Origin: a virus
Length of the DNA: 24,481 nucleotides
Strand: one strand, 5' to 3'
Virus record (IMG/VR): IMGVR_UViG_3300047510_002126
Location: 1 to 24,481 of that record
The first letter of the stretch is position 1. The number at the start of each line of letters is the position of its first letter. The position numbers and the translations under genes were made by a program. This document shows positions 2,313-24,481 of this stretch, in pieces. A model generated the notes under the pieces. It did no database searches and was not told where the DNA came from. It saw only the letters and a program-made list of their open reading frames with translations.

Positions 2313-2313
2313 A

Positions 2314-2532
2314 ATGATTCCTGATTTTCAGAAGACTTCGTTACTAATACCTTCTCAACTTCCCTCTTTTGTGAGGGAAAATCCGGACTATGACAAGTTC
2401 GTTACGTTCTTGCAGGCATACTATGAATGGATGGAAGAGAATGGTAATGTCACAGAGAGAAGTAAAAACATTCTCAACTATAAAGATATTGATAGAACAT
2501 CAGAAGAATTTATAGAATATTTTTACGAATGA
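2314..2532 (+). CDS. 7: Baseplate wedge gp7-like protein, N-terminal fragment (frame breaks at about 2522)
   Basis: This open frame of 72 codons starts MIPDFQKTSLLIPSQLPSFV and contains the conserved pattern DYDKFVTFLQAYYEWMEENG, which resembles the C-terminal domain of T4 gp7 (the 'FEAFCEAYIQYLSDGYG' region). It stops at TGA 2530-2532 in mid-domain. Reading on in the +1 frame from the T run at 2520-2524 restores the expected continuation EYFTNEFLQYFPQEVL, so this is the front of one long gene, not an independent small gene. A single extra T in a five-T run explains the shift. Without the shifts the gene would be 2314-5112, about 932 residues. It lacks the large N-terminal half of T4 gp7. The gene starts one base after the gp6 stop. 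Confidence 0.7.
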   Translation: MIPDFQKTSLLIPSQLPSFVRENPDYDKFVTFLQAYYEWMEENGNVTERSKNILNYKDIDRTSEEFIEYFYE

Positions 2533-2737
2533 GTTCCTTCAGTATTTTCCACAAGAAGTTTTAATTGATAAACGTACTGCTGTAAAGTATGCTCGTCAAC
2601 TATACTACACAAAAGGTACACCAGCATCTTATCAATTCTTGTTCAGAATTTTATACGATTCCGATTTCGATATCTTCTATACAAAAGATGCAGTTTTAAA
2701 AGCTTCTGATGGTTCTTGGTATGTTGCAAGAAGTTGA
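2522..2737 (+). other. Middle segment of the gp7-like gene in the shifted (+1) frame
   Basis: Between the two open pieces of the gp7-like gene, the second frame (codons from 2522) is open up to TGA 2735-2737. It encodes well-formed, conserved-looking protein: NEFLQYFPQEVLIDKRTAVK, then KGTPASYQFLFRILYDSDFD and YTKDAVLKASDGSWYVARS. This matches T4 gp7 in the patterns DKRxAV and STKGIEASYKFLFKVLYN. At the far end, inserting one base near 2733 (AGT TGA CAA becomes AGT TTG ACA A) returns the reading to the original frame. The two shifts therefore cancel. The most economical reading is one extra T at 2520-2524 and one missing T at 2734-2735, from sequencing or assembly error or a recent double mutation. 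Confidence 0.75.
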
Positions 2738-5112: not shown

Positions 5113-5115
5113 AAA

Positions 5116-6528: not shown

Positions 6529-6534
6529 TAAATA
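6527..6534 (+). promoter_or_regulatory. Possible T4-type late promoter (AATAAATA)
   Basis: AATAAATA fits the NATAAATA late-promoter pattern described for T4-like cyanophages. It overlaps the stop codon of the 470-residue fibre gene and lies just before the gp8 start at 6542. About nine such matches occur on the + strand, roughly what chance predicts in DNA this AT-rich, so position is the only real support. No Shine-Dalgarno sequence is visible before gp8. Confidence 0.3.
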
Positions 6535-6541
6535 ACTCACT

Positions 6542-10900: not shown

Positions 10901-13006
10901 CTACACAAACGTTGGGCATTCAAAGACATTACAGATTTACAGACACGTGTTAACAATCTGGAATACTATACTTCATTGAATTTGTTGGAACAAAAAGCCA
11001 CAAACCTACAGATACCTGACGGAAATGGTTTAAATCGTTTCAAGAATGGTATCTTAGTTGATGATTTTTCAACCTTTAGTGTTGGTGACACATTTAATCC
11101 AGACTTTAGTGCAGCAATTAATACAAGATTGCAATACTTGACACCTGCAATATTGGTTAAAAACTATCCTCTACAGAATCAACAATTGTTAAGTGTTGGT
11201 GGTTTCAAAGGTTTGTCAAATACAGCCACCACAGGTCTGTCATACAAACCAACAAACTCGGATATTTCTCCACTTTATACTCTAAAGTATACGGAAGAAA
11301 TAATTGCAAGCCAACCTTTGGCGAGCAGAGCAATTGCAATTAATCCTTTTGCTGTAGCAGATTCGGTTGGTACACTGACTCTGACTCCACCAATGGACAA
11401 TTGGATTGACAATACAGCACAACCTGATTTGTTATTCATTGATCCAAACCTGAAGATGTATCAACCATCAAGTACCTCAAACTTACTTGAAGGCAATCCA
11501 ACTCTGGCTGTTGGTGACTGGCAAACAATTCCAGGAACAGAAACAACAACCACAAAAACACTAACAGAAACCAGCACAGATGAATACGGTAATCAGTATT
11601 CTTCTTCTTATAATGCAAACGTCACAACTGTAGACAAACAAAACATCTATACCTACGGATATTGGTCACTAACATATTCAGTTGAAGGTAATTATATTAC
11701 CAACGTTTCTCTGTTGCCTTACATCAGAGCACAACAGATTGCTTTCAGAGCAACAGACATGTTGTTTAATACAACAGTTAACGCATTCTTTGATGAGAAA
11801 CGTGTCTCACGTTTAATCAGAAAACCAAACATTATTGAGTTGAGATCTGTTTCCGGAACATTCAAAATTGGTGATACAATTGGTTATGTCGTGAGTTCAA
11901 TCTTCACAAAGACTGGTATCATTTCCGATATTTACAAGTATGCAAACGGCAACGTTCGTCTGTATGTGATTGGTGATGTTGGCACCACAAATTATGGTGC
12001 AATTGTGAGAAACGGATTCTTTAACACATCTGGTGTATATCAAAATAGTACAGCAAGTGGCACATTGGTTACACTAACTCACTATTCTGGTGCATTTAGA
12101 GCAAACACAAATACAGCAAACACTGTAACACTTGCAACAACAGCATCTTCTAGCAACACTGCTTATGTTGGCCAAGAGTTCTGGATTGTCAATGGATCAG
12201 AAGCAAGTGTGCTTTCGATACCTATCGGTCAAAAGGCAACAGTTTCAAGTTACAACGGCGTAACTAAAGTGGCAACACTGAATAGAAATATAATTGCAAA
12301 AACTGGAGAAACTTACTCCATTGGACCTATCACAACAAACGAAGTTGGTTCTGTGTCTGGTGTGTTCAACTGTCCAGGTGGTTACTTCCATGTTGGCGAA
12401 AGAACGATGAAGATTGATAACAGAATTGTTTCTGAAGGTATAACAGACTTCTTCTACAACAAAGGTACCGAAACCACTTCAGCTGAGGCAACTTTCTTTG
12501 CACAAGGTCTTTCTACAACATCTCAGCAAATTAATTACTCTGCAAGCGTATCTGGCCAAGCCAACACAGTTACAACCATCAAAACAGTTAATGATTATGT
12601 TACAAATACTCAAAGAATTGCTAGTGGTGGTGGTGGCGGTTGTTGTGTTATCTCTACAGCAATGGCTGACATGGGTATTTGGTCGAAAGATCAGAAGTTT
12701 GATCTGATCGAATGGTGTGAAAAGTATCTACACAACAAGACACTTGGTGAATGCTTCCGCCGTGGATATCAAGTGATTGGTTCTAAGGTTGCTGTGCCGT
12801 TGTTGAGAGATCAAGGCATTATTGGTAAGATTTTAAGACCTTATGGCAATTGGGCATTCACCAACGGCACAAACATGGTTCGTGGTAAGAAGTTCTCATG
12901 GTTGTCTGTACCCAACTCTCTAGTTTGGATTGCAGGTTTCATGGCAGTTGGTGCAGTTGTTACAACAAAGTATGCGAACAAGTGCTGGAAAAAACTGTAC
13001 GAATAA
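7919..13006 (+). CDS. Giant DUF4815-family virion/baseplate protein with CFI-box-like C-terminal tail
   Basis: The protein has 1695 residues. Its N-terminus (NVDPYYDDFDPSKNFHRILF, then PGVAVQARELTQSQTILQSQ) is the hallmark opening of the DUF4815 family found in large structural proteins of marine T4-like phages. The body is beta-rich and repetitive. Near residue 1540 the text 'GTETTSAEATFFAQGLS' is the usual late section of the family. Then come Gly5-Cys2 (residues 1570-1576) and a 120-residue tail beginning CVISTAMADMG, resembling the CFI-box C-terminal domain, with a hydrophobic segment at about residues 1660-1680 (SLVWIAGFMAVGAVVTT). Homologues I remember continue instead into the 'DPVAQTF' domain, which here is a separate gene at 13440. 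AAAGGA before the ATG is a good ribosome site. The location suggests the outer baseplate, in the gp9/gp10 position. Confidence 0.75.
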   Translation: MALNFNVDPYYDDFDPSKNFHRILFKPGVAVQARELTQSQTILQSQISKFADNIFSQNTPVTGGKVTVNQNCYYLKLNAQYNSADIVAGDFTNKIIQDSTGQIIAKVIKTAEATGTDAAAGDPPTLIVTYLSGTQFSDGMDVFPADGSNFAATIIGTLGGSTGVGLSSVASISDGVFYIVNGYSQSSTQNEDGSYTKYSIGNFVSVQPQTTILDKYSSSPSYRVGLSIQETIVDYIDDPSLLDPAVGASNYQAPGADRYQINLTLTTLPLELGNDDAFVELLRIENGNVQKQVDNTVYSVIDEYFAKRTSETNGDYIVSNFKITPSANTIDANTYILGVGPGIAYVQGFRLENQSTLQITSDRARTTDSVNNNSNFIDYGNYIYVDNLKGQGNSFFDITTGSPVDFHIVGTASVNRANTTTYNSTLAGSGYIRAVTYVQASNGSNTQTYTYKAHIFDLASKTLSSNVSAANTNFTTLYVGTAGLLSNVANAYVGCSITIDSGTDAGDARTITYYDPNNKTIQTDAPFTIAPDGTSQFSIRFGVKDFETIVQPVSGTPYTFQGSASVSNLGKVNNVASGYTQLFNPGNPQLIFPLGNKFVSAVTDSSFTTLQEFRAQSFASYLSGSRRYLQLDPSSVGVFDFIRTGTTESADAIRQNWIVVATDRLTNTTINNGDIIDFTTGSRTIAVDSDKNGVYLTCPDLAPFAATIYAKLSVTDGNDTNYVLKTKTLVTANTTVASSAGPDGVVNDTYIDLTNGQIWIPTAGVLSYGNNQKLYVSDVKRIVKIIDTNGVTPNTELLTTGTDITSYYTFNDGQTDNYYGHSYITLKPGRQKPVSLWILFDHFSHSGGDGYFSAQSYTNVGFTDRPKYYAGNGTLYDLKDCLDFRPAVLNGQGNFVFKYKITPTSTNNSGFFIPSDLSAFTSDYAYYLGRKDILVIGKDKGIRLIEGVPDINPVFPSQPEGSMLLAKISLDPYTEYVTGQTTTGQVANISVQPVLHKRWAFKDITDLQTRVNNLEYYTSLNLLEQKATNLQIPDGNGLNRFKNGILVDDFSTFSVGDTFNPDFSAAINTRLQYLTPAILVKNYPLQNQQLLSVGGFKGLSNTATTGLSYKPTNSDISPLYTLKYTEEIIASQPLASRAIAINPFAVADSVGTLTLTPPMDNWIDNTAQPDLLFIDPNLKMYQPSSTSNLLEGNPTLAVGDWQTIPGTETTTTKTLTETSTDEYGNQYSSSYNANVTTVDKQNIYTYGYWSLTYSVEGNYITNVSLLPYIRAQQIAFRATDMLFNTTVNAFFDEKRVSRLIRKPNIIELRSVSGTFKIGDTIGYVVSSIFTKTGIISDIYKYANGNVRLYVIGDVGTTNYGAIVRNGFFNTSGVYQNSTASGTLVTLTHYSGAFRANTNTANTVTLATTASSSNTAYVGQEFWIVNGSEASVLSIPIGQKATVSSYNGVTKVATLNRNIIAKTGETYSIGPITTNEVGSVSGVFNCPGGYFHVGERTMKIDNRIVSEGITDFFYNKGTETTSAEATFFAQGLSTTSQQINYSASVSGQANTVTTIKTVNDYVTNTQRIASGGGGGCCVISTAMADMGIWSKDQKFDLIEWCEKYLHNKTLGECFRRGYQVIGSKVAVPLLRDQGIIGKILRPYGNWAFTNGTNMVRGKKFSWLSVPNSLVWIAGFMAVGAVVTTKYANKCWKKLYE
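12623..13003 (+). other. Gly5-Cys2 linker and CFI-box-like C-terminal domain
   Basis: This stretch encodes Ser-Gly5-Cys-Cys-Val-Ile-Ser-Thr-Ala followed by about 115 residues with regularly spaced Trp/Leu/Cys (IEWCEKYLHNKTLGECFRRG) and a near-terminal hydrophobic helix flanked by lysines. A Cys-(Phe/Val)-Ile-(Ala/Ser)-Thr-Ala box after a glycine-rich linker matches the CFI-box C-terminal domain seen on many otherwise unrelated large proteins, whose function is not established. It replaces the domain normally expected here in the DUF4815 family. Confidence 0.55.
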
Positions 13007-13009
13007 ATT

Positions 13010-13459
13010 ATGGGACTAAGCGTAGCTGAATATTTCGCACAAAAGGAGGCATGTGCCTCCTGTGTGGATCATGGCACCGAAGAACATTGTGTTACCACAT
13101 TGTTGAGTAGAAAAGAAAATTGTTTTGTTTATAATATTATACATAATCAAATTGGTGAGTATAAACAAGAAGAGATAGAAATGCTCAGAAAAATGAGAGA
13201 AGAATCCTCAGAAGAAGAGAATGTAATTTATTATGTTAGAGGTGAAAGAATCATCGAAAAGATGCACCTTATGGAGAAACCTTTCTATGAGCAGGTATCT
13301 TTTTTTAGTTATATTAATTTTAAATACATCAAAAGTGTTGTTGAAGCACTAGTTCAGAAACGAACAGAAGATGCAAAACGTCTAATAAATACTATGTTAG
13401 AAGTTCTTGAAAAAGAAAATAACATACCGAAGGAATTAAATGAGTTCAAGTACTATTGA
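13010..13459 (+). CDS. Unknown protein with an N-terminal Cys/His cluster
   Basis: This 149-residue protein is not recognised. Residues 15-27 read CASCVDHGTEEHC (Cys15, Cys18, His21, His26, Cys27), which could bind a metal, and another Cys follows at 38. Residues 48-75 are strongly charged and probably helical (KQEEIEMLRKMREESSEEEN), and residues 105-143 look like a second long helix (VEALVQKRTEDAKRLINTML). No transmembrane segment or signal peptide is seen. The gene starts three bases after the DUF4815 protein and overlaps the start of the 551-residue protein by 20 bases. It therefore lies exactly between two pieces that appear to belong to one structural protein. It may have arrived with the CFI-box tail, or may be a small chaperone or partner for that tail. 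Function unknown. Confidence 0.7.
   Translation: MGLSVAEYFAQKEACASCVDHGTEEHCVTTLLSRKENCFVYNIIHNQIGEYKQEEIEMLRKMREESSEEENVIYYVRGERIIEKMHLMEKPFYEQVSFFSYINFKYIKSVVEALVQKRTEDAKRLINTMLEVLEKENNIPKELNEFKYY
13044..13061. other. Perfect 8-bp GC-rich inverted repeat (AGGAGGCA-TG-TGCCTCCT)
   Basis: AGGAGGCA (13044-13051) is matched exactly by its reverse complement TGCCTCCT (13054-13061) with two bases between. It lies about 35 bases inside the 149-residue gene and could fold as a stable hairpin (stem AGGAGG, loop containing CATG). On the - strand the stem would be followed by TTTT, like a short intrinsic terminator, but no - strand gene precedes it. It also contains an ideal Shine-Dalgarno AGGAGG that would be hidden in the stem and has no useful start codon after it. 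Confidence 0.5.
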
Positions 13460-15095
13460 TCCAGTAGCGCAAACATTTATCATAGATGGTCAGAATTTTC
13501 CATCTGGAGCTTTCTTAAGTTCCGTAAATTTGTTTTTTAGAACAAAGCCATCGACCAGCGTACCTGTTCGTGTTTGCATATTACCAACTCTTAATGGTTA
13601 TCCAACTGGTCAACCATTACAGTATTCTATTGTTAGTTTGCCAGCCACTTCTGTTAATGTATCTGAAACACCACATTATTTAAATTCAAATACATATACA
13701 AATTTTGCTTTTTCGTCACCTGTCTACATTAATCCGGATCAATTGTACGCAATAGTTGTACAATCGTCTTCAAATGATTACACATTGTGGTGTTCACAAC
13801 AAGGTGATACTGCACTGTTGTCAACATCAAAAGCTCTACCGACTGATGCAAATCCATCTTCACCAACAAAGATTGTTACCACACCATATGTTGGTGACTT
13901 GTTCGAATCACAGAATGGATTAACTTGGACAGCCGATCTATTAAAAGATTTGATGTTTACAATTAATAGATGTAAGTTTAGTACCAATACATCACCATCA
14001 ATTTCATTTGTTGTTCCGGCAGGATTACCAGAAAGAAGAAGAATCGAATCAACTACAGCTCTTGCTGTAGCCAATTCCATATACGATGCACTCAACCTAT
14101 CCACAACAGACTTAACACCACCAGGAACATCTCTTACATATCAGTACACAACGACACTAGAGTCTGGTATATCCGATGGTCCATACAGTGTGGTTCCAGG
14201 AAAATATGGAACACCAAAATCAGAAGATGTTAGTCTGAATGACAACAAAGGATCAAGAGTATTAAATTATACCGCAAACGATTCATTCAAATTACAAGTT
14301 ACTCTATCAACGGATAATGATGCGGTAAGTCCAGCAATTGCAGAAGACGGATTGAACCTATGGACAATTCGTTATAGAATTAATAACATGGGTATTTCTA
14401 ATGATGACATTTTCTTAATTACTGGTGGTCGCGGTTACTTAGCTAATGCAAACGGAACAATTTCTTATCCCGAAATTACCGTTTCTGCACCAGATTTGGA
14501 TGGTGGCGAACAAGCTTACGTTTCTGCCAACATTTATTTGGGAAATATCGTTAGTGTGTATGTCACATCGGAAGGTTCTGGATATCTGACAACACCAACA
14601 ATTACTATTTCAAACACATCAAACGTGTTGGCGAACGTAATTATTGCCGGTGAAACTTCACCTTCCGGCGGAAACGGCAGAGCCAAATATATCACACAGA
14701 CCGTCACGTTGGCCGAAGGTAGTGATTCTGGTGACCTGAGAGTATATACAACCGCATACAGACCAACAAATTCTGATATTCATGTGTACTATAAGATTGT
14801 GGCTAGAGATGATACACAGAAAATTGAAGACAGTGATTGGAAACTAATGACGATCACCAGTGGTGCTGGAAGATACTCAACAAGTTTCTCCGATATCGTT
14901 GAATACGAATTCTCACCAGGCACCTTAAATGTTGCAGATGAATTTGTAAGTTACACCAGTAAAGCAAATGGTCTTTCTTACACTTCATTCTATCAGTTTA
15001 TGATCAAGGTTGTTATGTCATCTTCTGATTCGACATTCGCACCATTCTTGGACGACATAAGAGCAATTGCTCTGCCACCAGGAACAGGACTATAA
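13440..15095 (+). CDS. DUF4815-associated virion protein, detached C-terminal portion
   Basis: The protein has 551 residues. It begins abruptly with SSTIDPVAQTFIIDGQNFPS, then SVNLFFRTKPSTSVPVRVCI and NGYPTGQPL, and later GLTWTADLLKDLMFTINRCKF. In marine T4-like phages this DPxAQTF...GxTWTAD...MFxxxRAKF series normally forms the C-terminal part of the same large polypeptide that starts with DUF4815. Here it has its own start, with GAAGGA nine bases upstream of the ATG at 13440. Residues about 325-420 hold GGRGY and GSGY modules like those of gp6, gp7-like and gp8. The gene overlaps the preceding one by 20 bases and the following one starts just after its stop, so translation is probably coupled. 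Assembly with the 1695-residue protein is inferred. Confidence 0.65.
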   Translation: MSSSTIDPVAQTFIIDGQNFPSGAFLSSVNLFFRTKPSTSVPVRVCILPTLNGYPTGQPLQYSIVSLPATSVNVSETPHYLNSNTYTNFAFSSPVYINPDQLYAIVVQSSSNDYTLWCSQQGDTALLSTSKALPTDANPSSPTKIVTTPYVGDLFESQNGLTWTADLLKDLMFTINRCKFSTNTSPSISFVVPAGLPERRRIESTTALAVANSIYDALNLSTTDLTPPGTSLTYQYTTTLESGISDGPYSVVPGKYGTPKSEDVSLNDNKGSRVLNYTANDSFKLQVTLSTDNDAVSPAIAEDGLNLWTIRYRINNMGISNDDIFLITGGRGYLANANGTISYPEITVSAPDLDGGEQAYVSANIYLGNIVSVYVTSEGSGYLTTPTITISNTSNVLANVIIAGETSPSGGNGRAKYITQTVTLAEGSDSGDLRVYTTAYRPTNSDIHVYYKIVARDDTQKIEDSDWKLMTITSGAGRYSTSFSDIVEYEFSPGTLNVADEFVSYTSKANGLSYTSFYQFMIKVVMSSSDSTFAPFLDDIRAIALPPGTGL

Positions 15096-15096
15096 G

Positions 15097-15324
15097 ATGT
15101 TGGTCAAAGTAGAAGGCACAAATCTGTATCGTGATACAGAAACTATGGCTTTAATTAATAGAGACACCAAAGAGAGAAACGATTATATAATGAAGACTCG
15201 CTTAATTAAGAACCAAAAAGATCAAATAAATACCGTAAAAGAAGAAATAGAAGTCATCAAGGGCGAAATGTCCGAGATTAAACAATTGATGATAAAACTA
15301 CTCGAAAAAGGTTCAAATGGCTAA
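15097..15324 (+). CDS. Small coiled-coil structural protein
   Basis: This is a 75-residue protein starting MLVKVEGTNLYRDTETMALI. The first 30 residues look like a short globular or beta segment. Residues about 31-72 form a charged heptad-like helix (KDQINTVKEEIEVIKGEMSE), predicted to be a coiled coil. The ATG at 15097 sits one base after the previous stop. An in-frame ATG at 15067 lies inside the 551-residue gene and would add an unconvincing MLCHQEQDYK, so 15097 is preferred. The end overlaps the following fibre gene by eight bases. Position suggests a trimerising adaptor or chaperone for the adjacent fibre, but the role is unproven. Confidence 0.7.
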   Translation: MLVKVEGTNLYRDTETMALINRDTKERNDYIMKTRLIKNQKDQINTVKEEIEVIKGEMSEIKQLMIKLLEKGSNG

Positions 15325-18300
15325 TACAGTTACATCGTTAAGTTACGCAAACACATTTGGTGAGTGGGTTGTTGCGACTAATAGTCTTATTAGAGAGAAT
15401 AATGATCTTGCGGCAAATGATTATGTTAAAAGCACAGGTACACTTTACCTAAATGAAACTACACAAAACTCTCTTCAATCAAACGGAACTGTAATCATAC
15501 AGAAAGAACTGCTTGTACAAGGTACAGGTTCATCTGCGACAGTGCAAAATAATTTAAACGTTGGTAGTCAATTATATCTAACAAATGGTACACTAAGTTT
15601 AGTTGCATCAGGTCAAGCAAACGTTGCTGGTCAGATTAACGGGCAAGCTTCTGGTATTGGTCTGTTCATTGCAAACAATGCACATATTGGTGGCACCACA
15701 GTTTCCGCTGTTAGACTGACAACAGGAGTTTTGCAAGCAAACTCTTCCGTCAATACATCAAACGCATCGATTGTTAATACATTATTCACTAAAGATTTAC
15801 AGGCAAATTCAACAGTTAATACAGCAACCGCTTCTGTAACTGGTACCACATTTACCAATGTACTACAAGCCAACACATCAACAAACACAAGTAATGCTTC
15901 GATTGTTGGAACGACATACACCGGTATGTTACAAGCCAATACTTCTGCAACTGTTGGTACATTGCAAGCTAATACATCCACAAATACTGCTACTGCGTCC
16001 GTAACAGGCACCACATTTACTAATGTATTGCAGGCGAATACGTCAACTAACACCGCCACTGCATCTGTAACAGGTACCACATTTACCGGTGTGTTGCAAG
16101 CCAATACATCAACAAATACGGCAACAGCATCTGTAACTGGTACCACATTTACTAATGTACTTCAAGCCAATACTTCTTCAAATACCAGAACAGCTTCTGT
16201 AACAGGAACAACATTCACTGGTTCATTGCAGGCAAACACTTCTGCAATTGTTGGAACGTTACAGGCTAATACATCGACAAATACTGCCACAGCATCTGTC
16301 ACAGGCACAACATTTACGGACATTTTACAAGCGAATACGACCGCAATAGTTGGTACATTACAGGCCAACACAACTGTAATTGCACCAACATCATCCGTAT
16401 CTGGTACAACATTCACCAATGTTTTACAGGCCAATTCGACCGTCAACACAGCAACAGCATCGATAACTGGTACAACATTTACAGACACTCTACAAGCGAA
16501 TACAATTGCTATTGTAGATTCACTAAGAGCTAATGCCGCAGTAAATACGAACTCGTTACTTGCAAATACTATTACTGTCAATAACAGTATTAATGCTAAT
16601 GCTGCCGCCGGTTATTTTAATAGTCTGTCTGTTCAAGGTGGTGGATTAACAGTTGGTGGAAACTTTGTTATAACTGGTACAACTGTATATACTTCAAATA
16701 CATTCGTTCTTTCTTCAAACGTTTCATCGGCAATTTCTAGTTATTTTAATGTTGATAGAGGATCTACTGGTGTAGATGCAGCGTTCCGTTGGAATGAACC
16801 CAACAAATATTGGGACATGTTGAATGTCACATCAAACACATACTATCGTGTTTTGACAGATGAATATTTGAATGATACATTAACATCTACCAGTACAACA
16901 TCTGTTTCAACTGCAAATGCAGCCAACACACTAAACAATCTTTTAAATACAGCAAATACTTTCTTACAAACTGGTATTGCTTCTTCAGGATTATATGCAA
17001 ACGGAGCATTCTTAAGAGCTAATGCTGCATACAATTCTCAAAATACAACTGGCACATACGCAAATAATGCATATGCACAGGCAAATACAGCAACTAATAA
17101 CGCAGCTGGTGCATCACTGTATGCCAATGGTGCTTTCATACAAGCCAATGCTGCATTCTTGAGAGCTAATACACCAGATGCAATTGCAAACTCTGCTGCG
17201 CTGTATGCCAATGGTGCATTCGTTCAAGCCAATGCTGGTTATACACAGGCCAACACTGCAACCAATAACGCAGCTGGTGCTTCCTTATACGCGAACGGGG
17301 CTTTTACACAAGCTAATGCTGGTTACACACGAGCAAATACTGCAACCACCAATGCGGCGACAGCTGACAGTAAAGCAGTAACAGCTGGTTCTTATGCAAA
17401 CTCCGCATACGGACAAGCAAACACCGCTACGACCAATGCAGCAACAGCAGACTCTAAAGCTGTAACTGCTGGGTCTTATGCGAACTCAGCGTATGGTCAG
17501 GCTAATACCGCCACAACGAATGCATCTGTTGCAACCAACAATGCGGCTGGTGCATCTCTGTATGCGAACGGTGCTTTCATACAGGCAAACGCAGCATTCT
17601 TAAGAGCCAATACACCAGACGCTATAGCAAACTCTGCAGCACTCTATGCCAATGGTGCTTTTGTACAAGCTAACGCAGCTTTCACAACAGCCAATAGTGC
17701 ATTAAATGCAAGTAATCTTTCAAGTGGTACTGTTCCTCTTGCACGTTTAAGTGGTATTACAACTACACAACTGAGTACAAGTGCTGGTATTATAAACGCA
17801 CAATTACAAAATAGCACAATTTCTGGTGTCGCTTTAGGTTCAACTTTAGCTTCACATTCAGCTGGAACTTATTTGGTTGGCAGTGCTTATAATGGCAGCA
17901 CAGGTCAAACATGGTCTGTTGATGCCACCACAACGAATACTGCAAGCAAAATTGCAGCAAGAGATAGTGCTGGTGATATCTACGCAACAGTATTCAGAGG
18001 TCTTGCAACTAGTGCCAACTACGCTGACTTGGCAGAAAAATATTTGGCTGATCAAGAATACGAAGTTGGAACAGTTGTTGCTGTTGGTGGTGAAGCAGAA
18101 GTTACCGCTGGTTCATATGGAGATAGAGCAATCGGAGTAGTATCTGCTCATCCTGCTTATATGATGAACAGTGAACTGGAAGGTGGAACTTATATTGCAC
18201 TTAAAGGTAGGGTTCCAGTGAAAGTATCTGGCACTGTGCGTAAAGGACAACGCTTGGTTGCATATAACAACGGTACGGCTGTTGCAGCAGTGCCACACGC

Positions 18301-18376
18301 AAATGACGTTTTCGCAATCGCACTAGAATCGAGTGATGATACTGGAGTAAAACTAATCGAAGCAGTGATTTTATAA
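15317..18376 (+). CDS. Large repeat-rich tail-fibre protein
   Basis: The protein has 1019 residues. Residues 1-130 form an N-terminal domain (TSLSYANTFGEWVVATNSLI). Residues about 138-400 hold a 22-residue repeat (QANTSTNTATASVTGTTFTN). Residues about 405-555 are a non-repeat beta region with FRWNEPNKYWDML. Residues about 558-798 are YANGAF/QANAAF repeats. A linker (SSGTVPLARLSGITT) typical of fibre tips leads into a C-terminal domain at about residues 898-1019 (ANYADLAEKYLADQEYEVGT, GDRAIGVVSAHPAY, VRKGQRLVAY). That terminal domain is common on marine phage fibres and resembles the family of autoproteolytic fibre tips; whether it cleaves itself cannot be told. AAGG nine bases upstream supports the start. 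A receptor-binding or rod fibre is likely. Confidence 0.75.
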   Translation: MANTVTSLSYANTFGEWVVATNSLIRENNDLAANDYVKSTGTLYLNETTQNSLQSNGTVIIQKELLVQGTGSSATVQNNLNVGSQLYLTNGTLSLVASGQANVAGQINGQASGIGLFIANNAHIGGTTVSAVRLTTGVLQANSSVNTSNASIVNTLFTKDLQANSTVNTATASVTGTTFTNVLQANTSTNTSNASIVGTTYTGMLQANTSATVGTLQANTSTNTATASVTGTTFTNVLQANTSTNTATASVTGTTFTGVLQANTSTNTATASVTGTTFTNVLQANTSSNTRTASVTGTTFTGSLQANTSAIVGTLQANTSTNTATASVTGTTFTDILQANTTAIVGTLQANTTVIAPTSSVSGTTFTNVLQANSTVNTATASITGTTFTDTLQANTIAIVDSLRANAAVNTNSLLANTITVNNSINANAAAGYFNSLSVQGGGLTVGGNFVITGTTVYTSNTFVLSSNVSSAISSYFNVDRGSTGVDAAFRWNEPNKYWDMLNVTSNTYYRVLTDEYLNDTLTSTSTTSVSTANAANTLNNLLNTANTFLQTGIASSGLYANGAFLRANAAYNSQNTTGTYANNAYAQANTATNNAAGASLYANGAFIQANAAFLRANTPDAIANSAALYANGAFVQANAGYTQANTATNNAAGASLYANGAFTQANAGYTRANTATTNAATADSKAVTAGSYANSAYGQANTATTNAATADSKAVTAGSYANSAYGQANTATTNASVATNNAAGASLYANGAFIQANAAFLRANTPDAIANSAALYANGAFVQANAAFTTANSALNASNLSSGTVPLARLSGITTTQLSTSAGIINAQLQNSTISGVALGSTLASHSAGTYLVGSAYNGSTGQTWSVDATTTNTASKIAARDSAGDIYATVFRGLATSANYADLAEKYLADQEYEVGTVVAVGGEAEVTAGSYGDRAIGVVSAHPAYMMNSELEGGTYIALKGRVPVKVSGTVRKGQRLVAYNNGTAVAAVPHANDVFAIALESSDDTGVKLIEAVIL
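15729..16520 (+). repeat. 66-base coding repeats (TATASVTGTTF) in the large fibre
   Basis: A 22-residue unit (LQANTSTNTATASVTGTTFT) is repeated with exact 66-base spacing at least at 15995, 16061, 16127 and 16193, and more loosely on either side. Shorter inserts (IVGTLQAN) interrupt the register. Nucleotide copies differ mainly at third positions. These are protein-coding repeats: there are no unique spacers of the kind found in a CRISPR array. Confidence 0.85.
16996..17710 (+). repeat. YANGAF/QANAAF coding repeats in the large fibre
   Basis: Repeats of the type LYANGAFIQANAAFLRANTPD occur here several times with linkers TATNNAAGAS and NTPDAIANSA. They are of the same family as those in the 470-residue fibre gene at about 5329-5604, indicating duplication or exchange between the two fibre genes. 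Boundaries are approximate. Confidence 0.75.
17348..17515 (+). repeat. Tandem 84-base repeat, identical in protein but recoded in DNA
   Basis: Two adjacent 28-codon copies (17348-17431 and 17432-17515) encode exactly the same peptide (TNAATADSKAVTAGSYANSA, then YGQANTAT). Comparing codon by codon, 17 of 28 codons differ, all synonymously, including an AGT/TCT serine change. Part of a third, diverged copy follows from 17516. Confidence 0.9.
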
Positions 18377-18458: not shown

Positions 18459-18989
18459 ATGATAACACTAGATGAGTTTGAAAACTTCTTGTACACAGAT
18501 TTGGTATACGAACAGAAAATAATTTCTGTTATTGATGATCAATCTAGGCAAATATTAATTGATAGTGTACATCAGTTACATGAATACTCAAACTGTACCA
18601 TAAAACTGGAACAGATGGAAAAATACAACGAAAGTATTTTCCAAAAGTGTCAAGAGTTGAAAGCAAAGTACTCGCATCCAGGTCCAATGACTTGCCATGC
18701 ATTCCTTGCTTTCAAAGGTTCTAAGAGTTTTGGTTTGCATACTGATCCAGACAATGTTATAATAGAATGTATCTTTGGTTCAAAGACACTGTATGTTGAT
18801 ACCAAAAATGATAGAAGACATGTGCTCAAACAAGGCGAATATATATTCATACCAGCCAACAAAGAACACGAAATCGTTAATGAAGAGAAATCATTGATAT
18901 TGAGTTTTGGATTTGAAAAATTTTACACTGAGAAACTTAAATTAAATTATGGAATCGATGTTCTACCTCAAAACGACAGAAACTTGTAA
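18459..18989 (+). CDS. Cupin / JmjC-like Fe(II) oxygenase-type protein
   Basis: The protein has 176 residues. The second half carries a cupin core: GLHTDPDNVIIECIFGSKTL with His94 and Asp96, then KQGEYIFIPANKEHEIV with His137. An HxD...H triad plus 'GxYIxIPxxxxH' is the pattern of JmjC/cupin_4-type Fe(II)/2-oxoglutarate oxygenases, such as those that hydroxylate ribosomal proteins. The first 75 residues are helical and charged. It is the first gene of the modification cassette, and the radical SAM gene begins within its last 41 bases, implying coupled expression. By inference it could hydroxylate a residue of the Cys/His-tailed 179-residue protein, or of another target. A non-enzymatic cupin is possible, because the 2-oxoglutarate-binding residue cannot be identified with certainty. 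ATG 18459 is chosen over TTG 18450; neither has a clear ribosome site. Confidence 0.65.
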   Translation: MITLDEFENFLYTDLVYEQKIISVIDDQSRQILIDSVHQLHEYSNCTIKLEQMEKYNESIFQKCQELKAKYSHPGPMTCHAFLAFKGSKSFGLHTDPDNVIIECIFGSKTLYVDTKNDRRHVLKQGEYIFIPANKEHEIVNEEKSLILSFGFEKFYTEKLKLNYGIDVLPQNDRNL

Positions 18990-19998
18990 TCTAGACTGTC
19001 TTCATTGTTTCACTAGTGGTTCCAAAGGCGCAAAGATATACTGGAACCATGTCAAAGTCGCTGATTGGTTACAAAGACTCTCAGAAAAAACACCATACAT
19101 AACACACGCACACTTTGAATTTCATGGTGGTGAACCATTTCTGGCAGATATTTCTTCACTTCAATACGTGTACGACAACTGCCAGAATCTATGGAAAAGC
19201 CAGAGTTGGGGCGTCACAACCAACCTAACATTCAAATTAGATCAAGAAAAAATAGACTTCATAATGGGTCCTTTGGGTGGCAGAGTTGGTACCAGTTGGG
19301 ATCCAGATATACGATTCGCAAATCCTAAACAGTATGATCTCTGGAGAAAGAATGTACAAACACTGATCGATCTAGGTGTTGTTATCAAGTTGTTTGTCAG
19401 TGTAACAAAAGGAACTATTGCAATAGAACCTATAGACTTACTTGAGTGGGTCAAGTCACTTGGTGTCACAGAACTTGCACTAGAGAGACTGACGATGAAT
19501 GGTAGTGCAAAACAAAATTTGCATATATTTCCTACAAACATCGAACAAGACCAATGGTTTCTTAAGATGCATCAACAAATTGAAAAACATGATGCGAGAG
19601 ACTGGTTTGTAAATGAATTTATGGAAACCGTATATGATAAATTCGAAACTGGATTTACAGGTGGTGGAACATTCTGTAGAGACTGTGAGGAGAAGTTATT
19701 CACCGTGAATGCTGATGGCACTGTATCGGGCTGTCCAAATTCCGCACCAGAGTTTCAGTTCGGCACGATAGACGATGACATAGATGCATTACTATCTAAT
19801 CCACAGAGATTGGAGAACATTGCGTGTGAGAGAGCAAGAGATCCTAGGTGTTATACGTGTGAGGTGTTCCAATATTGCAACAGTGATTGTCACCAGTTAG
19901 AGTGGCAAGGTGATATCTGTGGTGCACCAAAGAGTTTGATGATGGACTTGGCAAAAATAAATAAAAAACACCCAGTTTTCAACCTTCTACAGGTTTAA
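18949..19998 (+). CDS. Radical SAM/SPASM peptide-modifying enzyme (first of three)
   Basis: The protein has 349 residues. The radical SAM motif CNLDCLHC (Cys13, Cys17, Cys20) binds the SAM-reducing 4Fe-4S cluster, and HGGEPF (Gly60-Glu62) is the SAM-binding GGE motif. The C-terminal SPASM domain is textbook: Cys246-x10-G-x4-Cys262, then Cys301-x2-Cys304-x5-Cys310-x3-Cys314 and Cys324, which would hold two auxiliary 4Fe-4S clusters. This architecture is that of enzymes maturing peptides or proteins (sactipeptide, mycofactocin, PQQ and anaerobic sulfatase types). No RRE-like recognition domain is obvious; the enzyme starts only 12 residues before the first Cys. It overlaps the cupin gene by 41 bases, and the next radical SAM gene follows after one base. 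ATG 18958 is an alternative start. The target is unknown; the CHSS-tailed protein downstream is the best candidate. Confidence 0.92.
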   Translation: MESMFYLKTTETCNLDCLHCFTSGSKGAKIYWNHVKVADWLQRLSEKTPYITHAHFEFHGGEPFLADISSLQYVYDNCQNLWKSQSWGVTTNLTFKLDQEKIDFIMGPLGGRVGTSWDPDIRFANPKQYDLWRKNVQTLIDLGVVIKLFVSVTKGTIAIEPIDLLEWVKSLGVTELALERLTMNGSAKQNLHIFPTNIEQDQWFLKMHQQIEKHDARDWFVNEFMETVYDKFETGFTGGGTFCRDCEEKLFTVNADGTVSGCPNSAPEFQFGTIDDDIDALLSNPQRLENIACERARDPRCYTCEVFQYCNSDCHQLEWQGDICGAPKSLMMDLAKINKKHPVFNLLQV

Positions 19999-19999
19999 T

Positions 20000-21025
20000 G
20001 TGTTAACCAGAACAAAACCATATTCGACAGCATACGAACAGTACGGTGATCCACATAAACTTGTGGAGTTCCGTATGATGGTGCTCAATCATTGTTCTAT
20101 GGACTGTAAAGGATGTTTCTACAAGAGAACTGATAACAATTTCAACGATTTCAAAAGTTCAAGGTCTTTGGCAGAAGATATGCAATCGAATGGATATCGA
20201 TTGGAGACTTGTTATCTACTACCGACAGACATATTTGACAATAAAGATAACTACCTGTTATTCAACGATGAAGATTTCTCAGCAACAGTATCACAGTTTG
20301 CATATTTGGGTATCGCATCGACACTAGAAGATGGTTTTGATACCAAATTCTTTGATATTGTTTATGGTTTGAATGATGATATCAAGATCGAACTGCAAGT
20401 GAATCTTTTGGTGAGTAAATTGTTTGACATAAACTATCAAATGATACTCAAACACAATGTGAACCGAATCAAAAATCTATACAAAGACAGAATAGTAATT
20501 AATCTGGCAATCAATACTGGGTTTTCATTAGATACCAAAGAAAAAGATAAAATCAAATCAATGTTGAAATACCTTAGTGAAGATGGTATCGTAGAATTGA
20601 ACTTCACTTTCCTATATAACAAGGATATTTCGGAAGAAAAGAAACAAAAGATGATGAAAGATAGCATCAGAATCATTCAAGATTTTGGTGATTTCTACCA
20701 GAAAGACGATTCGTTTGTCACTAAATACAACCAACGCACATTCTTACGCAAACCATCTTTCGTTTTCGTTGGGGAACCAAACACAATATACGTCAATCCT
20801 ATAGTTCCCTTTGACGAATATGTTTACATTAAGAAAGATAGATATGTTGTTGAGTCTCCAACATACGATGGTTTTTTAAATTCTTATGGTAAAATAACTG
20901 AGATAAATACACCAGTAGTAGACGCCTGCGAATCTTGCGAACACTTGACTCACTGTATGGGTAAGTTTTACTTTGCTATATCAAATGATTTTGACTTAGG
21001 GTGTTTCTTAAATCTGAAGGAATGA
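20000..21025 (+). CDS. Divergent radical SAM protein with reduced auxiliary-cluster region (second of three)
   Basis: The protein has 341 residues. The motif CSMDCKGCFYKR gives Cys32, Cys36 and Cys39 for the SAM cluster. The GGE motif seen in its two neighbours is not recognisable; LLPTDIFDN occupies a comparable place. The C-terminus has Cys310-x2-Cys313-x5-Cys319 and Cys335, but lacks the upstream C...GxxxxC pair and the fourth close Cys of a full SPASM domain. It may bind a single auxiliary cluster (twitch-like), or may act as an inactive partner. Its central part is rich in lysine, aspartate and isoleucine and differs from the other two enzymes. The start is GTG at 20000, one base after the preceding stop; the first in-frame ATG is only about six residues before Cys32 and so is less likely. 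It lies directly upstream of the CHSS-tailed protein. Confidence 0.85.
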   Translation: MLTRTKPYSTAYEQYGDPHKLVEFRMMVLNHCSMDCKGCFYKRTDNNFNDFKSSRSLAEDMQSNGYRLETCYLLPTDIFDNKDNYLLFNDEDFSATVSQFAYLGIASTLEDGFDTKFFDIVYGLNDDIKIELQVNLLVSKLFDINYQMILKHNVNRIKNLYKDRIVINLAINTGFSLDTKEKDKIKSMLKYLSEDGIVELNFTFLYNKDISEEKKQKMMKDSIRIIQDFGDFYQKDDSFVTKYNQRTFLRKPSFVFVGEPNTIYVNPIVPFDEYVYIKKDRYVVESPTYDGFLNSYGKITEINTPVVDACESCEHLTHCMGKFYFAISNDFDLGCFLNLKE

Positions 21026-21035
21026 TGGAGAAAAA

Positions 21036-21575
21036 ATGGCAAATTCTGGTTCATTAATTACAAAACAGAGCATAGTAGACGATTACTATTCGTATATTAG
21101 GAATCCCGCATACAATGCAGTGGTTTTTTGGAGTGGAAATAATCCTGGTCCTTCCAGAATTAATACTGGCGCTCTTGGGCCAAGAGATTTTACTGCAAAT
21201 TTGGCAACAGGTAACATAACAGATACTGTCGTAACTGCAGCAACAATTGTCAATCAAGTTAGAAGTTTTGCTGCATACACAACAGCCGCAAGAAGAGCTC
21301 GTAGTGGTTATATTGTGGATAATTTTAGTCCAGATGAAGCACCATATACGATTGATGATAGAACCGATGTTTGCCGTTTAACAGACAGTTATTTAATTGG
21401 CTACACTTATGGTGGTAGTGTGAGTAATCCTGTGGGTGCAACAAACATCAATCAATTCTATACTAATATTAGATCAACTGCTCAGAATGCACAAACATCA
21501 GCAGCCGTAGTAGATTTACGTGTGTGCCACAGTTCATGTCACAGTTCATGTCACGGTTCAAGAGGAAGAAGATAA
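21036..21575 (+). CDS. Putative modification target: 179-residue protein with C-terminal CHSS-repeat tail
   Basis: The protein is not recognised as a known family. Residues 1-150 look like a compact alpha/beta phage structural protein without a signal peptide (SIVDDYYSYIRNPAYNAVVF, TAARRARSGYIVDNFSPDEA). The last 16 residues (164-179) read CHSSCHSSCHGSRGRR: three Cys spaced by three, each followed by His-x-Ser, then a basic end. Only one other Cys (about residue 112) occurs. Such a tail is both a CXXX repeat and a His-Xaa-Ser repeat, two patterns known from targets of radical SAM maturases. Its gene sits between radical SAM genes two and three, with GGAG before the ATG. It may be a virion tip decorated by the cassette. 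An unmodified metal-binding tip, like the iron-binding HxH tips of phage spikes, is an alternative. The tail is seen directly; its role is inferred. Confidence 0.75.
   Translation: MANSGSLITKQSIVDDYYSYIRNPAYNAVVFWSGNNPGPSRINTGALGPRDFTANLATGNITDTVVTAATIVNQVRSFAAYTTAARRARSGYIVDNFSPDEAPYTIDDRTDVCRLTDSYLIGYTYGGSVSNPVGATNINQFYTNIRSTAQNAQTSAAVVDLRVCHSSCHSSCHGSRGRR
21528..21551 (+). repeat. Exact tandem 12-base repeat encoding His-Ser-Ser-Cys
   Basis: CACAGTTCATGT occurs twice in a row (21528-21539 and 21540-21551), and a third, partial copy starts CACGGTTCA. The repeat encodes HSSC units of the C-terminal tail. Exact repetition in DNA, in contrast with the recoded repeats of the fibre gene, suggests recent expansion or a tail whose copy number can change. 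Confidence 0.9.
21561..21572 (+). promoter_or_regulatory. Shine-Dalgarno sequence embedded in the RGRR tail codons
   Basis: The codons for the final Arg-Gly-Arg-Arg of the CHSS-tailed protein (AGAGGAAGAAGA) contain GAGGA, placed about nine bases before the ATG at 21576. The start codon follows directly after the TAA stop. Translation of the 352-residue protein is therefore probably coupled to completion of the tail. Confidence 0.6.
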
Positions 21576-22634
21576 ATGTTTCATATTGCTAACAGAGTAT
21601 ATTTGGAATACGATTACAAATTCCATCAACAATACCCATATATTGTTGCATCAAGTAGATGGAAAGATCATCCAGTAACCATATCGAAAAGTGAACTAGT
21701 TGCTCAGGTACCAAGTTTCGAAGAACTGTTATCTGAGAGATATAATAATAACATCGAAACTTTTTGGTCAGCATTGTTATCTGAAACCAGAAAACTTGTT
21801 GTTTTCGTTGATCCGGAAACTATGGCAAAGTTGCAGTTTCAATATTGGAAAAGTATTTTCAAAGATGGTGTAAAGGCAGAAGACTTACACAAGTTACATG
21901 CCAGTTCTATAGAAAGTAACAGATTATCCAGTTACTACGCTTTAACTGGTTCATGGGACAGAGGCACAAATTCCTGGACCAAATCTAATGCATTCACCGA
22001 ATTGACCATACCAACTTTGGCAGATTCTACCAAACTGTTTAATGAAACTGTCGCATCGAATGCTATCAAATCGATGAACAAATCATCTGTCAGTATTGAA
22101 TATTTGATGGCTGATTTCTTCTATAACAATACTTCCAGTTACAAACAAGAACTACTAAAGAGAATTGAGTTTCTAACTTGGGATAACTGGTTGGATGAAC
22201 TAGAGCATTTAAAATATGAAATTATTTCTGGCAACATCGATGCTGGTAAATTAGATACATCTTTAAATATGAGTATCGGTAACATCGAAAGTGAACTGGC
22301 GAAAAGTGACTTGTTAAAATGGACTGTCGATCCAGCTTTCACCAATGATGCGGAGTATATCAAAGCAAATTATGATCCGCAAATTTTTGTTAACTGTTAC
22401 ATCAAATTAGCAGAAGTTTGGCAACATGAATATGATGACATGTCAGAACTCAGTAGACTAATTAATGAAGAACAATATGAAGAGTTGTTGAATAGAGATA
22501 TTAACAGGAACTATGGTTGTTCTTATACACGCACACGATTCTTTGAAAAATCCAATCATGTGTTTGCCACATGGTGTTATGACTTGAAGAGAAAAGGTCA
22601 AACTTCTCAGTTGTCATCATTCGTTCTACGTTGA
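21576..22634 (+). CDS. Unknown 352-residue protein of the modification cassette
   Basis: I do not recognise this protein. It begins MFHIANRVYLEYDYKFHQQY and has a predominantly helical second half (LDELEHLKYEIISGNIDAGK, YIKLAEVWQHEYDDMSELSR). It has only three Cys (about residues 272, 317 and 332), not arranged as a cluster site, and no SAM, cupin, ATP-grasp or protease motif that I can identify. No membrane segment or signal peptide is seen. It starts immediately after the stop of the CHSS-tailed protein with a strong ribosome site, and is followed by a small hairpin gap and the third radical SAM gene. The tight coupling suggests a partner, chaperone or recognition protein for the tail, or a further modifying enzyme of unknown type. 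Confidence 0.75.
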   Translation: MFHIANRVYLEYDYKFHQQYPYIVASSRWKDHPVTISKSELVAQVPSFEELLSERYNNNIETFWSALLSETRKLVVFVDPETMAKLQFQYWKSIFKDGVKAEDLHKLHASSIESNRLSSYYALTGSWDRGTNSWTKSNAFTELTIPTLADSTKLFNETVASNAIKSMNKSSVSIEYLMADFFYNNTSSYKQELLKRIEFLTWDNWLDELEHLKYEIISGNIDAGKLDTSLNMSIGNIESELAKSDLLKWTVDPAFTNDAEYIKANYDPQIFVNCYIKLAEVWQHEYDDMSELSRLINEEQYEELLNRDINRNYGCSYTRTRFFEKSNHVFATWCYDLKRKGQTSQLSSFVLR

Positions 22635-22637
22635 TGT

Positions 22638-22661
22638 AACACTTAATTTTTCGTGAGTGTT
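22638..22661 (+). other. Intergenic hairpin before the third radical SAM gene
   Basis: AACACTTA (22638-22645) pairs with TGAGTGTT (22654-22661), giving eight pairs including one G-T wobble, around an eight-base loop ATTTTTCG. It ends ten bases before ATG 22672. No T tract follows, so a simple terminator is unlikely; an RNA stability or translation-control element is possible. A GTG start at 22657 would lie inside the stem, which favours the ATG. Confidence 0.45.
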
Positions 22662-22671
22662 TAATTATAAT

Positions 22672-23793
22672 ATGTATTCGGTATTCTCAAAAGAATTTAA
22701 TGTCGTTTACCTTAGGGTGGTACAAGGGTGCAACTTAAATTGTACTCATTGTTTCACTCTGGGTAATAAAGATCCCATCATGTTCACAGAATTGTCCGTT
22801 CTGGAAAAATTCTTAACATCAATACGAAACAATGTAAATCCGCAGAAGGCGACTTTTTACATTCATGGTGGCGAAACATTTTTAGCACCACTAGAATATC
22901 TATCAAGTGTCAACGATCTAATTCGGGAAAAGTTTCCTGATATAAAGATGGACATAATACCACAAACAAATTTAATCTACAAGGTAGACCAAGAGTTTGT
23001 GGAGTTTATCAAGAAAGAATACAGAGGCACGATAGGTGTTAGTTGGGATGCCGACATACGATTTGGATCGGTAGCCATCAACAAAAAATCGGAACAAGAA
23101 GAAGTGTTCTTTAAGAACCTCCGATATCTGATCGACAATGGCATCAAAGTACACATTGCCATTACTGCACAAAAGAATTTACTGAATTATGATCCAATAG
23201 AGATCGTAGAAAAATTTGACGGCGTTGATAGTATAGACTTTGAATTGTTGACCACGTTTGATGATCAAACAAGAAGTCTGCGGCCAAACAATTTGAAATG
23301 GGCAAACTGGTTGGATAAACTTGTCACGTATTATGAGAACAATGAAACAACTTGGTGTCTGCCACAAATTGATCTGTTTACAAAGACATTGATGACAGGC
23401 AAGATGTTTGATTGTAAATGTAACTGTTGTGATAAACGAACATTCACCTTGAATCCAAACGGAACTGTTGGTCTGTGTCCAGACATGACTTATGTTGAAC
23501 CATTCAGCACAGTGGATGAAATGTCAACGGATTGGTCAACGTTCGAATCCAAGTCTTTGGACCTGATTGTAAAGAAGATCACCGCACAACAAGAACATGA
23601 GATGTGTTTCAAGTGTGAACACTACGACATTTGTGGTGGTAATTGTGACGCTTCATTATTTGATGACACAGAAGAATGCCCTCTGAGCAAGAAGGTTATT
23701 AGTCGCATAAGAGGCAACATAAATAATTTTATTCGACTTTATGAACAAAAAGCCAAATCTAATTTGACAGAACTGAGAGAAAATTATGAATAA
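22672..23793 (+). CDS. Radical SAM/SPASM peptide-modifying enzyme (third, paralogue of the first)
   Basis: The protein has 373 residues from ATG 22672; an in-frame GTG at 22657 would add five. The motif CNLNCTHCFT (Cys20, Cys24, Cys27) binds the SAM cluster, and HGGETF is the SAM-binding GGE segment. The C-terminal SPASM domain is complete: C-x10-G-x4-C (NPNGTVGLC), then CFKCEHYDICGGNC followed ten residues later by a final Cys, i.e. C-x2-C-x5-C-x3-C. An additional CKCNCC cluster precedes it. It shares with the first enzyme not only the motifs but also CNLxCxHCFT, HGGExFLA and GxSWDxDIRF, so the two are paralogues. They may modify different residues of one target, act in sequence, or form a heterodimer. 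Its stop overlaps the start of the next gene by eight bases. Confidence 0.92.
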   Translation: MYSVFSKEFNVVYLRVVQGCNLNCTHCFTLGNKDPIMFTELSVLEKFLTSIRNNVNPQKATFYIHGGETFLAPLEYLSSVNDLIREKFPDIKMDIIPQTNLIYKVDQEFVEFIKKEYRGTIGVSWDADIRFGSVAINKKSEQEEVFFKNLRYLIDNGIKVHIAITAQKNLLNYDPIEIVEKFDGVDSIDFELLTTFDDQTRSLRPNNLKWANWLDKLVTYYENNETTWCLPQIDLFTKTLMTGKMFDCKCNCCDKRTFTLNPNGTVGLCPDMTYVEPFSTVDEMSTDWSTFESKSLDLIVKKITAQQEHEMCFKCEHYDICGGNCDASLFDDTEECPLSKKVISRIRGNINNFIRLYEQKAKSNLTELRENYE

Positions 23794-24481
23794 GATCCGA
23801 GAAACTGTGGCACCTCTGCCAATTGAAACAATCAAAGAATATTTCCACGACAAAGAAATTTCTTTCTTGGTTGATTACGAAAACTCCAAGATTGCGGATA
23901 AAATTTTCTTAACATATGTTTCTAACCTAGACATACCACTAGATATCAAGTTGAGAAAAGACTTTCCCAAAGAAAAATTGTTTTCTCTAATTGATGCATA
24001 TATGGATGTAAAAACTATTTGCAATGTTGAAACATTGACTATGATGGTTGTACACATTCTACTCAAAGCAATCGGTGTAAACACAAAAGAATCATTGGCA
24101 AATACCTTTATGTCTGAAGAATTGGTCGATGAATTCATTGAAACAAGAAAAGAAAAAGTTTCAAAGTGGGCTCACTTTCTAGATTCTTCAATGTTGTTTC
24201 TGATCTACTCATACAAAGATTTGAATGAAAAGGTAAAGGTCGAGGAATCTTTCCCGAAAATAGAAGATGCAAATTATGTCGGTTTGAATATCGTAAACCT
24301 ATTCAGTGTTCCTGGGTTTATGAATTGTTATTTCGGTGCAGGTCCAACTCCAAACATGAGTTTCTTCACTGAACAATTCACCAAGTATATGTTCAAAGGT
24401 AAAAACCTATTCGACTATTTCAATAACGAAGAGAATATGTTTGTACCATTATTGATCGGTCTTGTTGAAAAGAAGTTGGAG
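23786..24481 (+). CDS. Unknown protein, 3'-truncated by the window end
   Basis: The ATG at 23786 overlaps the end of the third radical SAM gene by eight bases, and GAGAG lies just upstream. The frame is then open for 232 codons to the last base of the window, with no stop. The visible protein starts MNKIRETVAPLPIETIKEYF and contains FLVDYENSKIADKIFLTYVS, an apparently helical middle (TLTMMVVHILLKAIGVNTKE) and a phrase FSVPGFMNCYFGAGPTPNMS. There is no Cys cluster and no obvious signal peptide. I do not recognise a family. The overlap makes it part of the same transcript as the radical SAM cassette, so it may be another cassette member or the first gene of the next block. Confidence 0.75.
   Translation, partial: MNKIRETVAPLPIETIKEYFHDKEISFLVDYENSKIADKIFLTYVSNLDIPLDIKLRKDFPKEKLFSLIDAYMDVKTICNVETLTMMVVHILLKAIGVNTKESLANTFMSEELVDEFIETRKEKVSKWAHFLDSSMLFLIYSYKDLNEKVKVEESFPKIEDANYVGLNIVNLFSVPGFMNCYFGAGPTPNMSFFTEQFTKYMFKGKNLFDYFNNEENMFVPLLIGLVEKKLE

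Follow-up and report, generated by a model that had tools for sequence, protein, structure and literature searches.

We analyzed a complete IMG/VR virus record of 24,481 bases (IMGVR_UViG_3300047510_002126; hereafter, the window) that carries a cassette of radical S-adenosylmethionine (SAM) enzymes together with a protein ending in Cys-His-Ser-Ser (CHSS) repeats. Its seven genes, all present and all on the + strand, match the inventory given in the original prediction, which was made from the sequence of the window and listed a cupin, two complete radical SAM/SPASM enzymes, one divergent radical SAM protein, the CHSS-tail protein, and two other proteins. The tight packing and the baseplate and fiber neighborhood that it described were also borne out, by intergenic distances of -41, +1, +10, 0, +22, and -8 bases (in order from the cupin to the last gene, P7) and by phrog matches upstream of the cassette. 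The limits proposed for the cassette (positions 18459 to 24481) were right as coordinates, but the cassette is incomplete there because the record ends inside P7.

The first gene encodes a cupin with an HxD...H motif (18459 to 18989; 176 aa; ATG start; Pfam Cupin_2, E = 4e-7; phrog_8014), which we regard as accessory and for which an alternative TTG start at 18450 is likewise open. It is followed by rSAM-A, a radical SAM/SPASM enzyme of core subfamily A (18949 to 19998; 349 aa; phrog_1802, E = 2e-64), and by rSAM-G, a divergent radical SAM protein of accessory subfamily G (20000 to 21025; 341 aa; GTG start; CSMDCKGC motif). The CHSS-tail protein, the proposed substrate (21036 to 21575; 179 aa), matches phrog_35144 through its last 48 residues (E = 5e-9) and has the C-terminal end CHSSCHSSCHGSRGRR (21525 to 21572). 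Downstream lie P5, a frequent accessory protein (21576 to 22634; 352 aa; phrog_36207, E = 2e-13), rSAM-E, a second radical SAM/SPASM enzyme of accessory subfamily E (22657 to 23793; 378 aa; GTG start; Radical_SAM and SPASM matches), and the core partner P7 (23786 to 24481; 232 aa shown; phrog_20767, E = 6e-65), which has no stop codon before the record ends. The cassette extends past this point; radical SAM subfamilies A, G, and E are visible in the window in addition to P7. In the close relatives L003, L004, and L006, it goes on with rSAM-F, B, C, and D, and comparison with L006 suggests that these four genes should lie past the window end.

To find further members, a DNA pattern for CHxxCHxxCHxxRxRR was searched for in viral contigs (without a stop-codon requirement) and in prokaryote genomes, with at least 119 matching stretches in the former and 19 in the latter. 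Among the matches listed, at least 145 distinct proteins have CHx[S/N]CHx[S/N]CHx[S/A]R[G/S]RR as their very last residues. With the single exception of an odd frame of 37 residues at the end of a contig, all in-frame viral matches are exactly C-terminal, a placement that rules out a chance origin of the tail. We disregarded a few matches that were off-frame or in unrelated bacteria (e.g., L133, L134, and L140). The C, H, and R residues of proteins found in this way are invariant by construction. The fourth position of each repeat, which the pattern leaves free, is Ser or Asn in 139 of 145 proteins for repeat 1 and in 141 for repeat 2, and it is Ser or Ala in 141 of 145 for repeat 3. TCN (202) and AGY (176) codons are about equally frequent at this position, indicating selection on the residue rather than inherited DNA. 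The tail is constant, while the bodies are variable (approximately 110 to 350 residues), and 102 of the 145 proteins have no Cys outside the tail.

The loci retrieved with rSAM-E, rSAM-A, and P7 provide independent evidence for the tail. A protein near rSAM-A ends in CHx[SN]CHx[SN]CHx[SA]R[GS]RR in L003 to L006, which were found via rSAM-E without the tail, and the same tail lies near rSAM-A in Phosso, Atu_ph07, FLC6, and pPa_SNUABM_DT01 (L007 to L010), also found via rSAM-E; the tail protein is likewise present in FLC8 and SURPRISE13. Variant tails found without the tail pattern retain the CHx[S/N] units: CHSNCHGSCHGSL, which lacks RGRR, directly follows rSAM-A (L194 and relatives), CHYSCFTSSCHFSRGRR occurs in L225, and CHGNFPPPCHGSRGRR and CHTNVPTPPPCHASRGRR occur in Bdellovibrionota. 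Tail genes often form tandem pairs, sometimes with different bodies and the same tail (L082, L061, L011, L035, and others). The tail protein matched no Pfam or NCBIfam family, and tblastn with it returned no usable phage record. Its body diverges too fast for tblastn, and we therefore relied on tail-motif DNA patterns and enzyme queries.

The original prediction held that CHSS-tailed proteins regularly occurring without a radical SAM gene would argue against it, and this is not what we observed. Among the matches listed, 131 of 138 tail loci have a radical SAM open reading frame on the fetched piece, and in the remaining seven the sequence breaks off near the tail gene on one or both sides. 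Searches of the phage collection with rSAM-E, with rSAM-A, and with P7 all returned one identical set of seven records (Atu_ph07 [twice], Phosso, FLC6, FLC8, SURPRISE13, and DT01), in every one of which the tail gene comes after rSAM-A. For the reverse comparison, the 23 rSAM-A records without a tail in the fetched stretch were scanned whole; a tail was present in 8 of the 23, among them all 6 records longer than 25 kb, and a backwards control pattern gave 0 matches. Thus, in both search directions, the tail protein is almost inseparable from the radical SAM set. The cassette therefore has the arrangement of a ribosomally synthesized and posttranslationally modified peptide (RiPP) system, in which a conserved gene for the presumptive substrate, with a conserved core region, is tied to the enzymes.

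rSAM-A and rSAM-E both carry CX3CX2C and a seven-Cys SPASM pattern that can be read in their sequences, and both exceed the NCBIfam SPASM cut-off (TIGR04085; 32.2 and 29.4 bits, respectively; cut-off, 27). They are therefore members of the radical SAM/SPASM peptide maturase superfamily and complete, as first described. rSAM-G does not reach the SPASM cut-off; it keeps CSMDCKGC (CX3CX2C), its C-terminal CxxC set is shortened, and it has no Pfam matches, so that the label "divergent" was a fair one. CX3CX2C is present in 231 of 232 rSAM relatives and in 94 of 96 divergent-class relatives, of which only 1 has the full SPASM pattern, the other 95 being reduced like rSAM-G. rSAM-A is 41 to 48% identical to the ortholog adjoining the tail gene in cultured jumbo phages, and rSAM-E is 72 to 76% identical in L003 to L006. 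Fold and sequence searches of the PDB with rSAM-A and rSAM-E gave nothing usable.

When the radical SAM genes were sorted into subfamilies by hidden Markov model classification, A, B, C, and D were found together in marine T4-like loci (L003, L004, L006, L090, and L112), in the Atu_ph07/Phosso group and the SURPRISE13/DT01 jumbo phages, and on Bdellovibrionota chromosomes (e.g., L165, L167, L169, and L171 to L173). The presence of E, F, G, cupins, and 2-oxoglutarate (2OG)-Fe(II) oxygenases varies among loci. Cupin relatives occur in 71 loci, P5 relatives in 78, and P7 relatives in 115; P7 relatives are also present in 9 of 9 Bdellovibrionota-type genomes tested. The pattern is thus wider than could be seen from the window, to which the original prediction was confined: the core comprises P7 and at least four radical SAM enzymes, it is tied to fiber genes, and a chromosomal version exists in Bdellovibrionota.

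The fiber tie is a recurrent one. In 61 of the 86 loci with sufficient sequence, the cassette is immediately preceded by a gene whose product ends in an ADLAE[KR]Y...ALKGR[VI]PV fiber domain. The window has such a gene, a tail fiber of 1019 aa directly upstream on the + strand (15317 to 18376; phrog_19602 tail fiber, phrog_22593) that ends in an ADLAEKY...ALKGRVPV domain. In L003, this end domain gives a weak Peptidase_G2 match just under the cut-off (E = 2e-5). In 21 loci, the fiber gene and the tail gene are directly adjacent (-1 to +12 bases); most of these loci encode a tandem pair of short tail proteins. The phiKZ-like loci have a different neighbor gene and the same tail and enzymes; in L004 and L125, unrelated-looking genes without a recognizable fiber precede the cassette. 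For Atu_ph07, the numbering in the record agrees with that in the paper (gp215, major head protein; gp132/gp140, sheath; gp198, portal), and the tail protein, gp170, is the first coding sequence (CDS) of the virion cluster "CDS 170-215," which was defined by mass spectrometry (PMC6102473).

In Bdellovibrionota, the neighboring gene encodes a fusion of an N-terminal prepilin motif with a Peptidase_S74 fiber chaperone (endosialidase-chaperone; Pfam E = 2e-14), which looks like a pilin-anchored fiber. Such fusion genes were seen in L169, L166, L164-L165, and L170 to L173. A conserved partner gene, whose product ends in RHWVK[IV]K, adjoins the fusion; among 129 genomes of the class, the partner gene is present in 15, P7 in 12, and both in 11 (hypergeometric P = 6e-12). 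One Bdellovibrionota cassette contig is 4.15 Mb long, and no phage sheath gene scored above the cut-off in nine such genomes, which together indicate that this version is chromosomal rather than phage contamination. A quick P7 tree placed Bdellovibrionota in at least two places among phages, a placement that is tentative owing to the quick method and long branches. A CHSS tail also lies at a contig end of L139 (5203 to 5406, - strand), a metagenome-assembled genome titled only "bacterium"; the genes beside it (3135 to 3617 and 4293 to 5096) appear to encode a type IV pilin and a prepilin peptidase.

The AlphaFold model of the CHSS-tail protein is a compact alpha/beta domain (mean predicted local distance difference test [pLDDT] score, 87; body, mostly about 90) with a poorly ordered last block (pLDDT, 51), an end that might serve as a modification substrate. 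Among viral models, the protein matches only its own kind, including Atu_ph07 gp170, and the PDB gave no fold or usable sequence match. The models of three longer proteins (504 to 660 residues) of Myoviridae sp. ctijX18 in BFVD (A0A8S5USV2, A0A8S5USJ7, and A0A8S5USJ8) match the tail-protein body and may reveal its place in the virion. P7 was modeled with high confidence in its L006 ortholog (pLDDT, 95) and had no PDB match by fold or sequence. The sequence of P7 had hinted at homology to BTB/Skp1 folds, which the PDB searches did not support.

The most economical explanation of these data, to which we give a probability of about 0.66, is RiPP-like modification of the Cys-His-Ser tail carried by a fiber-associated surface protein. 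A small globular protein would be made next to the tail fiber (in Bdellovibrionota, the pilin-anchored fiber) and would carry a C-terminal substrate tail of CHx[S/N] repeats, whose Cys, His, and Ser side chains would be modified by the four core radical SAM enzymes (A to D). These enzymes would be helped by P7 and, depending on the locus, by cupins, 2OG-Fe(II) oxygenases, and additional radical SAM enzymes, with cross-links, oxidation, or epimerization as the candidate chemistry. The matured protein would then be built into or onto the fiber or baseplate, where it could form a stiff or metal-binding host-contact tip; this function at the fiber tip is plausible and less certain than modification of the tail. 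The idea with which the work began, namely, that a protein of the phage itself is modified by it and that this is probably a virion component, thus gains strong comparative support from the co-occurrence and the fiber neighbor, while the modification and the location of the product are predicted. As many large contractile-tailed phages and some predatory bacteria carry a matched set of at least four radical SAM enzymes, a CHxS-tail protein, and a fiber neighbor, they probably alter part of their own attachment machinery chemically. A bolder and decidedly more tentative proposal is that phages and predatory Bdellovibrionota share a four-enzyme radical SAM line that cross-links a CHxS-repeat tip onto an appendage touching Gram-negative prey (a tail fiber or a pilin-anchored fiber) and that the gene set has moved between them more than once.

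Several observations weigh against modification of a fiber-associated tail as set out above. In about a quarter of loci, the upstream gene is not a recognizable ADLAE-type fiber, and the fold of the tail-protein body matches no known tip protein. All three Atu_ph07 clusters span 46 CDSs (PMC6102473), so that the choice of 170 as a cluster border may be arbitrary, and the structural proteins named for FLC6 do not include its gp72. In addition, the chemistry is not readable from similarity because the radical SAM scores are far below every specific maturase cut-off.

The products of multi-enzyme radical SAM clusters are usually released peptides, and the combination of a variable body with a constant tail would suit a large leader from which a modified tail is cut off to act on the host or on rival phages. 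Such a released RiPP is nevertheless improbable in our estimation, given that the body of the modeled member is a folded domain and bodies reach from about 110 to 350 residues, that the tail is nearly invariant across phages of different hosts, unlike warfare peptides, and that the tie to fiber genes is constant; moreover, no obvious protease or exporter gene was noticed in the conserved core of the loci read, although no systematic search was made. We consider it equally improbable that the tail is an unmodified Cys3His3 metal site at the virion tip, with the radical SAM set serving to make another product (e.g., a cofactor, modified nucleotide, or glycan). Binding of Fe or Zn by CH repeats is conceivable, and metal binding is known at phage spike tips; this explanation, however, accounts neither for the near-inseparability of tail and enzymes nor for the fact that their nearest relatives are SPASM-type, peptide-modifying subfamilies. 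Still less likely are enzymes that act on the neighboring fiber, with the tail protein as their chaperone or carrier. The fiber gene does adjoin the cassette, and genes for fiber-assembly chaperones follow fiber genes in T4-like phages, but the phiKZ-like loci keep the tail and enzymes beside another neighbor, and a fiber end domain not known to be modified is a less obvious target than the conserved Cys-His-Ser tail.

The cassette resembles several known systems. The His-Xaa-Ser system (HxsA repeat protein and HxsB/HxsC maturases) likewise pairs a short His/Ser repeat with radical SAM enzymes; however, the HxsB match of rSAM-A was weak (34.6 bits; cut-off, 370), the HxsC score was 33.3 bits (cut-off, 267.9), NCBIfam gave no HxsA or HxsD match, and the cassette differs in having CHxS tails instead of HxS repeats, four core radical SAM enzymes, and a fiber neighborhood. 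The CXXX-repeat peptide system (TIGR04115/TIGR04119) likewise has Cys at every fourth residue and a radical SAM/SPASM maturase, but scores were far below the cut-offs (25.5 versus 350 bits and 20.2 versus 150 bits), and the cassette tails consist invariably of CHx[S/N] units, in most cases followed by R[G/S]RR. The best database neighbors of rSAM-A and rSAM-E are PapB, DynA/DarE, and anaerobic sulfatase maturase enzymes, which belong to the same superfamily and share the CX3CX2C and SPASM clusters; here, too, scores (47 and 62 bits) fell below the cut-offs (340 and 450), and the substrate proposed for the cassette is of another kind. A viperin (pVip) defense role was rejected (NCBIfam viperin, 24 to 26 bits versus 180; PADLOC pVip, 18 to 36 bits). 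No specific Pfam, NCBIfam, or PADLOC family covers the cassette.

The tip adhesin/chaperone gp38 of T-even phages is encoded after the fiber gene gp37. Like gp38, the tail gene is a small gene directly after a fiber gene in the 21 loci mentioned above (elsewhere, a cupin and rSAM-A intervene) and might have a role at the tip; no sequence or fold link between the tail protein and gp38 was found, and gp38 is not, to our knowledge, modified by radical SAM enzymes. Indeed, we know of no phage structural protein that is matured by such enzymes. The Bdellovibrio MAT fibers offer a further parallel, as they are chimeric, S74-chaperoned, phage-like trimeric fibers in predatory bacteria (PMC10769870). 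MATs have a signal peptide, whereas the cassette neighbor has an N-terminal prepilin motif fused to S74, and the paper on MATs mentions no radical SAM genes (PMC10769870).

The cassette is real and widespread, and within the reach of our searches, it is undescribed. In jumbo-phage papers, the cupin, radical SAM, and 2OG-oxygenase genes are listed under accessory or unassigned functions (PMC8066314 and PMC11898562), and no paper linking radical SAM genes of phages to modification of a tail protein was found in a search that left out most subscription papers and all preprints. If the proposed modification is real, it would add a class of virion proteins with built-in noncanonical chemistry, extend radical SAM chemistry to a new use in attachment machinery, and provide a molecular link common to phage adsorption and bacterial predation. 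It would also account for the puzzling clusters of radical SAM, cupin, and 2OG-oxygenase genes in jumbo phages such as S13 (PMC11898562). As cultured phages carry the cassette, these ideas are directly testable.

Elsewhere in the window, T4-like baseplate wedge genes lie at 237 to 7909 (+ strand; phrog_219, E = 2e-148; phrog_17744; phrog_438, E = 3e-77). The tail fiber at 15317 to 18376 contains many near-identical LQANTSTNTATASVTGTTFTNV-type repeats followed by ANGAFxQANAAF-type repeats. Between the baseplate and fiber genes, a phrog_358 protein is split into two parts (7919 to 13006, covering profile positions 5 to 1416, and 13440 to 15095, starting from profile position 1420), with a 149-residue open reading frame (13010 to 13459) between them. 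A short 3' part of the phrog_358 protein similar to that of the window is also present in L020 and L033.

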